Source: Pyramidobacter sp. C12-8 (GTDB lineage: Bacteria; Synergistota; Synergistia; Synergistales; Dethiosulfovibrionaceae). From it: a stretch of DNA of 64,000 nucleotides. Both the position numbers and the translations under genes were made by a program. Below, in pieces: positions 14,452-61,653 of this stretch. Where the stretch lies: contig NZ_MUHX01000008.1 in NCBI RefSeq assembly GCF_002007215.1, positions 1 through 64,000 on the forward strand, in the 5' to 3' direction. The first letter of the stretch is position 1, and every line of letters begins with the position of its first letter. The notes under the pieces are model-generated. The model was not told where the DNA came from and did not search any database. It worked only from the letters and a program-made list of their open reading frames with translations.

Positions 14452-14479
14452 AGATTTCAGTTATAAAGGAGTGCTTTCT

Positions 14480-15352
14480 ATGGAACTCTTTCATTTGCGG
14501 TACTTTATGACTGTCGCTAAATACGAAAACTTCTCGAAGGCCGCCGAGGAACTGTACATCTCCCAGCCGTCGATCAGCAAGGCCGTGCTCTCGCTGGAGA
14601 AGGAGCTCGGCGTCTCGCTGTTCCTGCGCAAAGGCAAGCGCGTGCAGCTCAACGACACGGGGCTGGCGCTGAAGCGCAAGCTCGAGCCCGTGATGAGCAT
14701 CCTCGACAATCTCTCCAAGGAGCTCAGGGTCGTAGCGGGACATTCGCGCTCGACCATCGTCTTCAACGTGCTGGCCGGCTCGTCGCTGCTGCCCGACATC
14801 CTCCTCAAGTTCAAGGCCATGCATCCCTTCATCGACTTCCAGATCATCCAGAACGCCCGCACCACCAAGTGCGACCTCTGCATGCGCACGGCGTTGCCCG
14901 ACGCGGCGCCGGAGAACAGCCGCGTGGTCATGAACGAGGAGATCCTGCTGGCCGTCCCCATGCAGTCCCATCTGGCGCTGAAAGAGTCGGTGCGGCTCAA
15001 GGACCTGCGCAACGAGAACTTCATCATGCTCGGCAAGCGCAGCCCGATGCGCGAGATCGCCGACCGCTTTTTCGCGCTGTGCGGCTTCGTCCCGCACGTG
15101 GGATTCGAAAGCGACAATCCCGGCACGATCCGCGGCCTCGTCAGCGCCGGCCTGGGCATCTCGTTCTGGCCGGAAGCCACGTGGGGGCATCTGGCCACCG
15201 ACAAGGCGCGGCTGGTGCACATCTCCGACCCGCTGTGCAGCCGCAACATCTACATCACCTGCGACGAACGCGGCAAACTCAACGACCAGACGCGAATGTT
15301 CCTCGACTTCGTCGTCGACTATTTCCACGGTCTTCTGAAAAAAGCTCGTTAA
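14480..15352 (+). CDS. LysR-family transcriptional regulator
   Basis: A 290-residue regulator. The N-terminal winged helix-turn-helix (residues 1-60: ELFHLRYFMTVAKYENFSKA, then SQPSISKAVLSLEKELGVSL) is classic LysR. A linker helix and a periplasmic-binding-protein-like effector domain (about 90-285) follow. ATG 14480 has AAGGAG eight bases upstream; the GTG at 14471 overlaps that site. LysR regulators usually act on a divergent neighbour, but the divergent side here is repeat and AT-rich DNA, so no target is evident. The gene ends next to a parS site and a shared terminator. Confidence 0.9.
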   Translation: MELFHLRYFMTVAKYENFSKAAEELYISQPSISKAVLSLEKELGVSLFLRKGKRVQLNDTGLALKRKLEPVMSILDNLSKELRVVAGHSRSTIVFNVLAGSSLLPDILLKFKAMHPFIDFQIIQNARTTKCDLCMRTALPDAAPENSRVVMNEEILLAVPMQSHLALKESVRLKDLRNENFIMLGKRSPMREIADRFFALCGFVPHVGFESDNPGTIRGLVSAGLGISFWPEATWGHLATDKARLVHISDPLCSRNIYITCDERGKLNDQTRMFLDFVVDYFHGLLKKAR

Positions 15353-15380: not shown

Positions 15381-15396
15381 TGTTCCACGTGGAACA
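15381..15396. other. parS site (ParB-binding palindrome)
   Basis: TGTTCCACGTGGAACA is a perfect 16-bp palindrome fitting the ParB consensus TGTTnCACGTGnAACA. The same sequence, also preceded by GGCAA, occurs at 61007-61022. It lies in the intergenic gap between two convergent genes, as expected for a chromosomal centromere-like site. Confidence 0.85.
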
Positions 15397-15400
15397 ACGA

Positions 15401-15448
15401 AAGCGGGCGGAAGCCGATGAGTCAGATTTCATCGGCTTCCGCCCGCTT
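15401..15448. terminator. Bidirectional terminator between lysR and an unknown gene
   Basis: A perfect 20-bp stem (15401-15420 with 15429-15448) with an eight-base loop lies between convergent genes ending at 15352 and 15477. It sits five bases from the parS palindrome. Confidence 0.8.
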
Positions 15449-15476
15449 TGCGTCGTTCAGGGGCAAAATGCCCGCA

Positions 15477-16442
15477 TCACAGCGTCAGGCAAACGGGGCG
15501 GCCGGCCTGGGGCAGCACGTCCCAGATCACTTCGCAGCGGTCGGGCGCAGCTTTCAGATCTTCGAGCGCGAGCGTCCAGATCTCCATCGGGTTGACGGGG
15601 CGGATCAACTCGTCGCCCAGCGCTTTCAGCCGCGCCAACGAAGCGTCGGCCCCGGCGCGGGTGCGGCTGACGAAGATCAGCCAGTTGACGCTGTCCTGTT
15701 CGTGAACGTCGCAGTCGAGATAGCCGGGGATCGCCAGCCGCCTCAGCTCCCAGAGCAGGCGGTGGAAGCGCCCGAGCGCGTCGAGCTGTTCTTCCGCCGT
15801 CGCCGCGGCCGAGAAGTAAAAGCGGTCGGCGTTGACGAGCCGGTGCTCGTCGCCCGGATGTCCCCTGAAGTCGCGGTAATTCTCGAAATCGTAGTTGACG
15901 ATCAGCACCAGATCGAGCCCCAGACGTTCGCCGGGCAGTTCACGCCACGCCGCCCAGGCGGCCGGGTCGGGGATCTCCGCGCGGCGCCGGCGGTGCGGCA
16001 CGGCAGGATGGGCTGCGAGCATGGCCTTGAAACGCGGTTCGTCGGGATAAAGCCAGCGCAGTTTTCCGCCCTCGATACGCCATACTTCTTCACGCCGCAG
16101 CGCCGGCCGCACGGGCCAATCGGGACGGACGACGTAGCGCTTCAGCCCCCAGCGCTGCACGTTCGCGCGCTCCAGTTCCAGCCACAGCGCCGTGGTCAGC
16201 AGGCAGCGTCCCGCGTTTTCCGGCTCGCCGCCGGGGCGCTCGTCGAGAAACATCTCTGCCGCGGCCCGGCGGAACGATTCCGCGCCGGATCCCGTCAGCG
16301 CGTAGACTCCGCCACGCTCCTTCAGCAGCCCCTGCGCGGTCAGTTCGTCCAGCCCCGCCGCGTCTTCTCCGGCGCGTTCCAGCAGCTCGCGGTCCCAGCA
16401 GGGATGATCCTGGCTGAAACGGGTCAGCAGCGATTCGTACAT
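15477..16442 (-). CDS. Protein of unknown function, 321 aa
   Basis: I do not recognise this family. Residues about 30-60 (LDELTAQGLLKERGGVYALT) resemble a winged-helix turn. The middle is rich in Arg and Trp. The C-terminal half has strand-like segments LDLVLIVNYDFENY and DSVNWLIFVSRTRAGAD, plus PVNPMEIWTLALEDLK. No signal peptide or membrane segment is seen, so it is likely cytoplasmic. It begins 18 bases after the frameshifted EamA transporter gene and is probably co-transcribed with it. The ribosome site is GAGAGGAT upstream of ATG 16442. Confidence 0.7.
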   Translation of the reverse strand: MYESLLTRFSQDHPCWDRELLERAGEDAAGLDELTAQGLLKERGGVYALTGSGAESFRRAAAEMFLDERPGGEPENAGRCLLTTALWLELERANVQRWGLKRYVVRPDWPVRPALRREEVWRIEGGKLRWLYPDEPRFKAMLAAHPAVPHRRRRAEIPDPAAWAAWRELPGERLGLDLVLIVNYDFENYRDFRGHPGDEHRLVNADRFYFSAAATAEEQLDALGRFHRLLWELRRLAIPGYLDCDVHEQDSVNWLIFVSRTRAGADASLARLKALGDELIRPVNPMEIWTLALEDLKAAPDRCEVIWDVLPQAGRPVCLTL

Positions 16443-33051: not shown

Positions 33052-33663
33052 CTACAGCAGCGGCGCGATCTCGCCCTTGTCGGCGCGCCAGCGTCCCAGA
33101 CGGAGCCGGGCGATACAGACCTCCGGCCAGCCGGAGATCGCTTCGCGGGCGATCAGCGCCTTGACGAGCGCGCCGGGACCGGTCTGCGACGGATCGTGCA
33201 TGACCAGCTCAAGACCGTCGCCGCATTCGCGCAGCGCCAGCAGCGTCTCCGCACCGAACTCCTCCGAGAGGACGCTCTTCACCGCCGCCAGCTTGTCCAT
33301 ATCGCGCGGGCAGAGCCAGTACGAAGCGGCGTCAAAACACTTGTTCAGCGACATAGCGTCGGGCGCGATGCGGGCGGCCCTGAGGAAACGGAACCCCGTC
33401 GGCGCCTGGGCGTTCATTTTTTCCAGCGCTTCCTCGGGCGGGACGTTCTCATCGAACCAGATCTCCGCCGCTTCGCAGAGCGAAATCACGCCCACCGGCA
33501 GCGCCGGTCCCATGACGATGTGCGGATGGGGCGACATGCCCTGCGTCAGGACGACTTTCAGTCCGGCGCGGCGGGCGATACGCCCGAAAAGCTGCGGCAG
33601 TTCCACGTGGCGCACGAAGCAGGCGAAGTCCCGCTTCTCGAAGATCATGCGGAGGCGGCTCAT
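33052..33663 (-). CDS. DUF2344 (TIGR03936) radical SAM-linked protein
   Basis: A 203-residue protein of the family found next to or fused with TIGR03960 radical SAM proteins. Typical pieces: MSRLRMIFEKRDFACFVRHV, PQLFGRIARRAGL and TQGMSPHPHIVMGPALPVG. Its ATG overlaps the radical SAM stop (ATGA), so the two are translated together and probably act together. The biochemical role is not established. Longer frames upstream are shadows of the radical SAM gene. Confidence 0.88.
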   Translation of the reverse strand: MSRLRMIFEKRDFACFVRHVELPQLFGRIARRAGLKVVLTQGMSPHPHIVMGPALPVGVISLCEAAEIWFDENVPPEEALEKMNAQAPTGFRFLRAARIAPDAMSLNKCFDAASYWLCPRDMDKLAAVKSVLSEEFGAETLLALRECGDGLELVMHDPSQTGPGALVKALIAREAISGWPEVCIARLRLGRWRADKGEIAPLL

Positions 33664-60610: not shown

Positions 60611-60886
60611 TTATCCCCTGACAGAGTCGTACTCCGTCGTCTTCTCAAACTGGCGGAGCGCATACGAACAGGTCGGCACGATTTTGACGCCGCGCTCACG
60701 GGCCGCCCGGACCAGTTCGTCCACCAGGCGCGCGGCGATGCCCTGCCCGCCATAGACGGGCTCGACTTCAGTATGGTACGCGGTCCAAACTGCGCCGTCT
60801 TCGGCATAGGCGCACAGCCCTACGCACTTTTCGCCGTCGTAGGCGGCGGTGCGTTTTCTCGTTTCTTCAAAGACAATTTCGATCAC
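60611..60886 (-). CDS. Small GNAT-family acetyltransferase (YjdJ/NATD1-like)
   Basis: A 91-residue GNAT protein. The acetyl-CoA pyrophosphate-binding loop is VYGGQGIAARLVDELV near residues 44-58. CSYALRQFEK towards the C-terminus matches the compact N-acetyltransferase subgroup. The start is GTG 60886 after GGGGG. Substrate unknown. It stands 86 bases upstream of the peptidase gene. Confidence 0.8.
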   Translation of the reverse strand: MIEIVFEETRKRTAAYDGEKCVGLCAYAEDGAVWTAYHTEVEPVYGGQGIAARLVDELVRAARERGVKIVPTCSYALRQFEKTTEYDSVRG

Positions 60887-61006: not shown

Positions 61007-61022
61007 TGTTCCACGTGGAACA
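61007..61022. other. parS site (ParB-binding palindrome), second copy
   Basis: The 16-bp palindrome TGTTCCACGTGGAACA is identical to 15381-15396, including the preceding GGCAA. It lies between the bioY terminator hairpin and the GNAT gene. Confidence 0.85.
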
Positions 61023-61024
61023 TC

Positions 61025-61076
61025 AATACCGCACAACGCCTGACGGCTCAACCGCCGTCAGGCGTTGTGCGGTATT
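61025..61076 (-). terminator. Hairpin terminating bioY
   Basis: A perfect 23-bp stem (61025-61047 with 61054-61076) with a six-base loop lies eight bases after the bioY stop and three bases from the parS palindrome. There is no strong T-run. Confidence 0.75.
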
Positions 61077-61083
61077 CTGAATC

Positions 61084-61653
61084 TCAGCGTTCCTCGGACT
61101 TTTCCTCCGTCCCGGCGGCGCGCAGACGGCGGCGCAGCCCCCGGCCAAGCAGGATCGCCAACACGATCTTCAGCGCGTCGACGGGAATGAACGGATAAAC
61201 CGCCGCGGCCATGCACCGGTCGAAACCGAGATTGGCGACTTTCGCCAGCCACGCCGCGCCGAACAGATAGAGCACGGCCAGCCCCAGCAGCATGCCGGCG
61301 AACTGCGCGGCGACGCGTTCCGAGCGGTCGATGAACCAGCCGCTGATCGCCGCCAGCGGGATGAAACCGACGAGGAAGCCGCCCGTCGGCCCGAGCAGTT
61401 TGCCCGCTCCGCCGGCAAATCCCGAAAACACGGGCAGCCCGACAAAACCGATCAACAGGTAGAGGACGACGGCCAAGGTGCCGCGCCGCGCGCCGAGCGC
61501 ATACACCGAAAGGTAGACCACGAACACCTGAAAGGAAAAAGGGATCGGCCCGACGGGCACCGACAGCGGCCCGAGCACGCACATCAGCGCCGTCATCGCC
61601 GCGATCGCCGCCATGTTTCTGACATGATTCTTCTCCATTGTTATTGTCTTCAC
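61084..61653 (-). CDS. bioY: Biotin transporter BioY (ECF S component)
   Basis: A 189-residue membrane protein with about six helices that captures biotin for an ECF transporter or acts alone. Family motifs are MTALMCVLGPLSVPVGPIPF, FQVFVVYLSVYALGARRGTL and LLGPTGGFLVGFIPLA, with a basic C-terminus. The start is GTG 61653 with GGAG five bases upstream; ATG 61638 has poor spacing. No EcfT or EcfA gene is nearby. A BirA-like operator overlaps its promoter. Confidence 0.92.
   Translation of the reverse strand: MKTITMEKNHVRNMAAIAAMTALMCVLGPLSVPVGPIPFSFQVFVVYLSVYALGARRGTLAVVLYLLIGFVGLPVFSGFAGGAGKLLGPTGGFLVGFIPLAAISGWFIDRSERVAAQFAGMLLGLAVLYLFGAAWLAKVANLGFDRCMAAAVYPFIPVDALKIVLAILLGRGLRRRLRAAGTEEKSEER

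Follow-up and report, generated by a model that had tools for sequence, protein, structure and literature searches.

Evidence for a genus-wide array of parS-type palindromes over most of the Pyramidobacter chromosome

In textbook ParABS systems, parS sites are few, usually one to four, and are kept by the origin, and the NBS recognized by the ParB-family protein Noc have the consensus ATTTCCCGGGAAAT. The usual system combines a 16-bp palindrome with a cognate parA-parB pair and a ParB bearing parS-specific residues (PMC7022226), and ParB spreads from parS by CTP-dependent sliding (PMC7053999, PMC8367383). The chromosomes of Streptomyces carry 11-65 predicted parS each, most of them near oriC (PMC8743542). 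Dispersed sites are also described for Noc of Bacillus (~70 NBS) and for SlmA of Escherichia coli (24-52 SBS), in both cases thinning away from the origin or towards the terminus (PMC4726725), while ParB of Pseudomonas aeruginosa contacts the whole chromosome through single 7-bp halves of parS (PMC7022226). Noc requires an N-terminal amphipathic membrane helix (PMC4331003). In Caulobacter, an extra parS at mid-arm is harmful (PMC5815017), and in B. subtilis widely spaced strong parS lead to SMC collisions (PMC8357415).

Here, we analyzed two palindromes found in a stretch of 64,000 nucleotides from Pyramidobacter sp. C12-8 (hereafter the window), together with their copies in the genome and the genus. 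The system shares with the usual ParABS its 16-bp palindrome, its cognate parA-parB, the parS-specific residues of its ParB and the siting of copies in the vicinity of dnaA and upstream of rsmG-parAB. It departs from it in its copy number, which reaches about 57 exact sites in 2.7 Mb where relatives have 1-4, in the location of 34 of these 57 outside the 20% origin domain (the usual, although not strictly defining, location of parS), and in its sequence, TGTTCCACGTGGAACA, which is one base per half off the TGTTTCACGTGAAACA of relatives. As in Streptomyces, the sites are many and origin-biased; here, however, the chromosome is circular and measures only 2.7 Mb, hence a higher site density, the relative spread is wider, and hairpins are joined to a quarter of the sites, the counts here being of exact 16-mers and not from a matrix scan. 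The array resembles the NBS of Bacillus in number, scatter, thinning from the origin and a reader of the ParB family, but its sites are parS-type TGTTCCACGTGGAACA and differ from the NBS consensus, there is no Noc paralogue, and the specificity positions read RKSG in the ParB studied here and QKKR in Noc. The SBS are likewise dispersed palindromes with fewer copies near the terminus, whereas both SlmA and its site are unrelated to those described here; and the chromosome-wide contacts of P. aeruginosa ParB involve half-sites, whereas those predicted here involve full palindromes.

The literature that we searched holds nothing connecting Pyramidobacter, or parS in Synergistetes, with such an array, and no small circular chromosome with some 57 perfect sites mostly outside the origin domain. 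What is known is parS itself, with up to 65 predicted sites in Streptomyces; what has no counterpart in that literature is the array in one genus whose relatives have 1-4 sites. Since displaced or extra parS disturb segregation or SMC traffic in experiments, this genus stands in tension with current ideas on tolerated parS placement, which the array makes testable. As a natural experiment, it bears on the reasons for the usual confinement of parS, on how SMC handles many loading points and on how ParB could turn into Noc.

Identity of the palindrome and its likely reader

The initial annotation of the window described two exact, identical palindromes, both intergenic, and our analysis confirms them (Table 1). 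It also judged a chance origin very unlikely, and rightly so: shuffles give 0.15 matches to TGTTCCACGTGGAACA at ≤3 mismatches in the window, where the only other match at this level is found at 33599-33614 (3 mismatches), and the genome contains 55 exact copies. Site 1 does lie, as described, between convergent genes and beside a terminator-like hairpin, while the gap holding site 2 separates two minus-strand genes, one encoding a BioY-family protein and the other a 91-aa product that looks, by eye, like a GNAT-type acetyltransferase. At both sites, a very stable hairpin starts within a few bases after the palindrome; the two stems are unrelated in sequence, and that of site 2 is a perfect 23-bp stem in the same-species genome G118 presented below. 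The GGCAA noted directly before both palindromes is real for this pair but is no genome-wide feature, as it precedes exactly no other genomic copy of TGTTCCACGTGGAACA; its sharing by the two sites is a coincidence.

Table 1. Features surrounding the two palindromes (window coordinates) and landmarks of the chromosome of G118 (last row, G118 coordinates).
Feature	Position	Strand	Description
parS-type palindrome, site 1	15381-15396	none	exact TGTTCCACGTGGAACA, 16 bp, intergenic
Hairpin joined to site 1	15397-15453	+	-54.6 kcal/mol, z -9.9
LysR-family regulator left of site 1, pointing at site 1	14471-15352	+	Pfam HTH_1, LysR_substrate
ORF of 321 aa right of site 1, pointing at site 1	15477-16442	-	no Pfam match
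parS-type palindrome, site 2	61007-61022	none	exact TGTTCCACGTGGAACA, 16 bp, intergenic
Hairpin joined to site 2	61025-61076	+	-55.3 kcal/mol, z -11.5
Small ORF of 91 aa left of site 2	60611-60886	-	ORF
BioY-family gene right of site 2, pointing at site 2	61084-61653	-	Pfam BioY, E 2e-42
Landmarks of G118	dnaA 171,967; parA-parB 161,315-163,026; mnmG 176,432; gyrB 208,271		

The identification of the palindromes as parS, already proposed in that annotation, is well supported by three lines taken together: their sequence, the place of two copies and the residues of the likely reader. Regarding sequence, TGTTCCACGTGGAACA differs by one base per half from the phylum's TGTTTCACGTGAAACA, sites of which lie within kilobases of parB in several genomes of other genera. 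The very 16-mer TGTTCCACGTGGAACA is also present in three genomes that belong to the phylum but not to this order (G001, G002 and G004), where its distance is about 1 kb to a match to the ParB recognition helix and about 1.8 kb to a TTTCACGTGAAA site. Regarding place, two copies are found just upstream of rsmG-parA-parB in the species of the window, at 160444 and 160561 in G118 (starts 117 bp apart), with parA at 161315 and parB at 162067. Regarding the reader, each genome of the genus encodes a single ParB-family protein (one TIGR00180 match each), located at G000:C122:10645 in the genome of the window. Aligned with Caulobacter ParB (6t1f), it displays R, K, S and G at positions 173, 179, 184 and 201, of which R173 and G201 are parS-specific and absolutely conserved in ParB (PMC7383237). 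The Noc-like residue K179 was considered as a cause of dispersal and rejected, because it is common in the ParBs of relatives with few sites. A contig scan for relatives of this ParB returned distant ParBs only, none of them from the phylum.

A related genus provides a separate observation. One of its genomes, G111, contains three GTTTCCCGGGAAAC palindromes (C2:264882, 276907 and 278043) beside its parB (C2:281311). GTTTCCCGGGAAAC is intermediate in form between parS and the site of Noc, and most genomes of that genus have a second ParB-family gene as well; from these sequences, G111 is possibly a natural intermediate of a parS-to-NBS switch.

Number, position and turnover of the sites

The assembly of the window's genome (2.67 Mb, 182 contigs) holds, besides its 55 exact sites, further imperfect ones, for a total of 76 at ≤2 mismatches, against 1 for the reversed control. 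Positions along the chromosome were taken from G118, a genome of the same species whose chromosome is contained in one contig of 2,777,081 bases. The ends of this contig carry three head-to-tail copies of a 25.8-kb stretch (1-25.8 kb, 2725240-2751031 and 2751032-2777081), probably through wrap-around of the assembly or tandem amplification; the end-repeat copies were set aside, giving an analysis length of 2,725,239 bases. Over this length, we counted 57 exact copies of TGTTCCACGTGGAACA (about 21 per Mb), 10 with one mismatch and 12 with two; the whole contig also has 57 exact copies, and shuffled palindromes of equal composition yielded 0, 0.03 and 0.6 there, respectively. Such a predominance of perfect copies over near misses (57:10:12) argues for selection or recent homogenisation, not for drift. 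Lone half-sites showed no clear excess in G118, the full palindrome being far more in excess, and a half-site surplus of the Pseudomonas type is hence not supported.

Across four genomes of the genus, exact copies number 53 and 54 in two sister species, 55 in the genome of the window and 57 in G118. Two same-genus MAGs were compared using GTTTCACGTGAAAC at ≤2 mismatches: G119, which has no exact TGTTCCACGTGGAACA, has 61 such sites (control 6) and the other has 18 (control 4), compared with 5-7 (control 1-4) in outgroup genera. For TGTTTCACGTGAAACA, the count in other genera of the phylum is about 1-4. A genus-wide array of approximately 55-80 perfect and near-perfect sites, covering most of the chromosome, is well supported by these sequence counts. 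The array of G119, with about 55 sites, consists of a different and more degenerate variant, which suggests a shift of parS sequence preference within the genus.

The initial annotation suggested that the window is close to the replication origin and proposed to plot all copies of the palindrome against dnaA and GC skew. The plot, with the origin placed by dnaA, reveals that the 57 exact copies of G118 are centred on dnaA-parAB (circular mean, 81 kb; Rayleigh p 7e-6), and overturns the proximity of the window, whose sites correspond to 2,343,300 and 2,390,504 in G118, a closed chromosome of 2.73 Mb, at distances from dnaA of 554 and 507 kb. For the even scatter or missing parB that the annotation named as refuting its reading, the outcome is mixed: the copies are indeed scattered, but in a gradient from the origin, and parB is present. 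By octile of distance from dnaA, the exact sites number 15, 12, 13, 2, 8, 4, 0 and 3 (KS p 5e-6); the origin half of the chromosome holds 42 of the 57, and the 20% origin domain 23. On either side, the array reaches as far as about 0.9 Mb and is sparser beyond, with its largest site-free gap (390 kb) starting at 1.10 Mb, the skew maximum. Four exact sites at 1.02-1.10 Mb, just before this maximum, mean that the array cannot be called terminus-free. Cumulative GC skew and gene-strand bias both peak at about 1.10-1.13 Mb, and a search of G118 for dif gave weak matches only, one dif-like sequence being located at 1,135,321. From about 2.0 to 0.35 Mb, roughly the site-dense zone with the origin, GC skew and strand bias are scrambled.

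Positions were compared with those in sister species through pattern matches and a concatenated-flank search. Among the 26 sites of G118 whose neighbour gene could be placed in the sister species G117 (53 sites), at least 15 are kept, a lower bound as three G117 sites lay outside the matches listed. Fourteen of these are exact and lie no more than 300 bp, and in most cases no more than 2 bp, from where they were predicted, and the fifteenth retains the 14-bp core only. Both sites of the window are kept: site 1, predicted at about C4:86959, was found at 86957 with flanks 94% identical, and site 2, one of the 14 exact ones, at C5:57126 with an offset of 0 bp. Close to half of the places may thus turn over between species at a constant number of sites, a pattern that points to selection on how many sites there are and how widely they spread.

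Proposed role of the array

We propose, with a probability of roughly 0.7, that the palindromes form a dispersed and selected parS array loading the only chromosomal ParB over an origin-centred megabase. At these sites, the ParB of the single chromosomal ParAB system of the cell would nucleate, the genus maintaining some 55 perfect and 20-odd near-perfect sites over about ±0.9 Mb centred on the origin, with sparse sites beyond. Each site, as known ParB biochemistry suggests, would load ParB-CTP clamps that slide away along the DNA, and this sliding would decorate with ParB the megabase around the origin rather than a few kilobases. The resulting extended centromere would serve ParA-driven segregation and let SMC, the gene of which is present in G118, load at many points; the harm caused by a mid-arm parS in Caulobacter (PMC5815017) and the collisions of SMC in B. 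subtilis (PMC8357415) sit uneasily with this scheme, and SMC might therefore not be loaded at distal sites. The location of sites in intergenic regions at gene 3' ends, along with the hairpins at a quarter of them, would keep transcription off the loading sites, and this location would also keep ParB away from promoters. The analysis shows the sequence of the sites, their number, distribution and conservation, the single ParB and its residues; occupancy, spreading, SMC loading and insulation by terminators are the parts of this scheme that we infer.

By analogy with Noc and SlmA, the single, unduplicated ParB might instead use dispersed parS to time division and to spare unsegregated DNA from the division ring, a reading that we consider unlikely. 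It would account for the ~57-80 sites graded from the origin and for a 390-kb gap that begins at the skew maximum, in line with the scatter of the NBS and SlmA sites and their under-representation near the terminus (PMC4726725), and no second ParB or Noc is encoded in the genome. The four exact sites at 1.02-1.10 Mb, however, lie close to the skew maximum and to the weak dif-like match at 1.135 Mb, and the match of ParB to the Noc model reaches 204 bits, far below the cut-off of 315. Moreover, a crude hydrophobic-moment scan shows no clear amphipathic helix at the extreme N-terminus of ParB, and its best window overlaps the GRGLGALL segment, which is the ParA-contacting part in other ParBs. 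MinD- and MinE-like genes, named by motif and position, are present as well. The combined proposal, in which an unduplicated ParB would both segregate origins and act chromosome-wide in nucleoid occlusion or compaction via the expanded parS array, is also doubtful in our view, resting on the same analogy; if true, such a dual-role ParB would represent a single-gene alternative to having both ParB and Noc, as well as a natural departure from the origin-only parS rule.

Genomic setting of the sites

With genes of G118 called by a home-made finder, 51 of the 57 sites are intergenic (89%) in a chromosome that is 85% coding (p 1e-35). Of these 51, 21 occupy convergent gaps, which are over-used (p 4e-5 against intergenic bases), 24 tandem gaps and only 6 divergent gaps, which are under-used (p 0.003). 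Flank preferences exist on both sides of the palindrome, with A at -1 (82%) and A or G at -2 (95%), and these symmetric RA...TY flanks lengthen it to a 20-bp form, RATGTTCCACGTGGAACATY. A long terminator-like hairpin is found within 8 bp of 15 of the 57 sites, including both copies of the window, where about 4 are expected. The hairpin of site 1 belongs to a repeated family combining palindrome and hairpin: in an alignment of seven copies (site 1 and six from G118), 97% of cells are paired and 7 pairs are changed on both sides, against 2.4 in shuffles, and 8 of the 9 strong loci of the family adjoin a palindrome. This shared covarying hairpin indicates that a part of the array, although not most of it, was spread or kept as a parS-terminator cassette.

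This part of the array, together with the preference for gene 3' ends, is what would be expected of a terminator or REP-like element whose palindrome-hairpin cassettes are copied about, with ParB binding being incidental. As an account of the whole array, we deem it improbable: about three quarters of the sites lack such a hairpin and are flanked by mostly unrelated sequences, no T-tract rule applies beside the palindrome among the sites, the flank signal is the symmetric one described above, and stems vary while the palindrome is invariant. Neither the grading from the origin nor the copies upstream of rsmG-parAB would be explained. Transposon-like spread is ruled out for most sites, as only a few small groups share related flanks.

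It is still less probable that the distal copies are owned by some other DNA-binding protein, such as a regulator or organiser, with the same target as ParB: the sites are depleted rather than enriched in divergent promoter gaps, the excess concerns the full palindrome far more than lone half-sites, and the sequence beside parB is identical. Finally, an ordinary origin-proximal parS pair marking the window as near oriC, to which the sequence and the existence of parB are suited, is almost certainly the wrong reading in view of the 55-57 exact copies and of the 0.51-0.55 Mb separating the window sites from dnaA, which refutes that location.

Two minor observations concern individual sites. At 633764 and 635814 of G118, two parS sites separated by 2 kb share the same right flank; this pair is, by its sequence, a local duplication carrying a site. 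In the sister species G116, the hairpin adjoining the orthologue of site 1 contains an insertion of about 0.8 kb (C79:57445-58255), which corresponds to positions ~15437-15449 of the window and where a 13-base overlap of the query ends resembles a target-site duplication.
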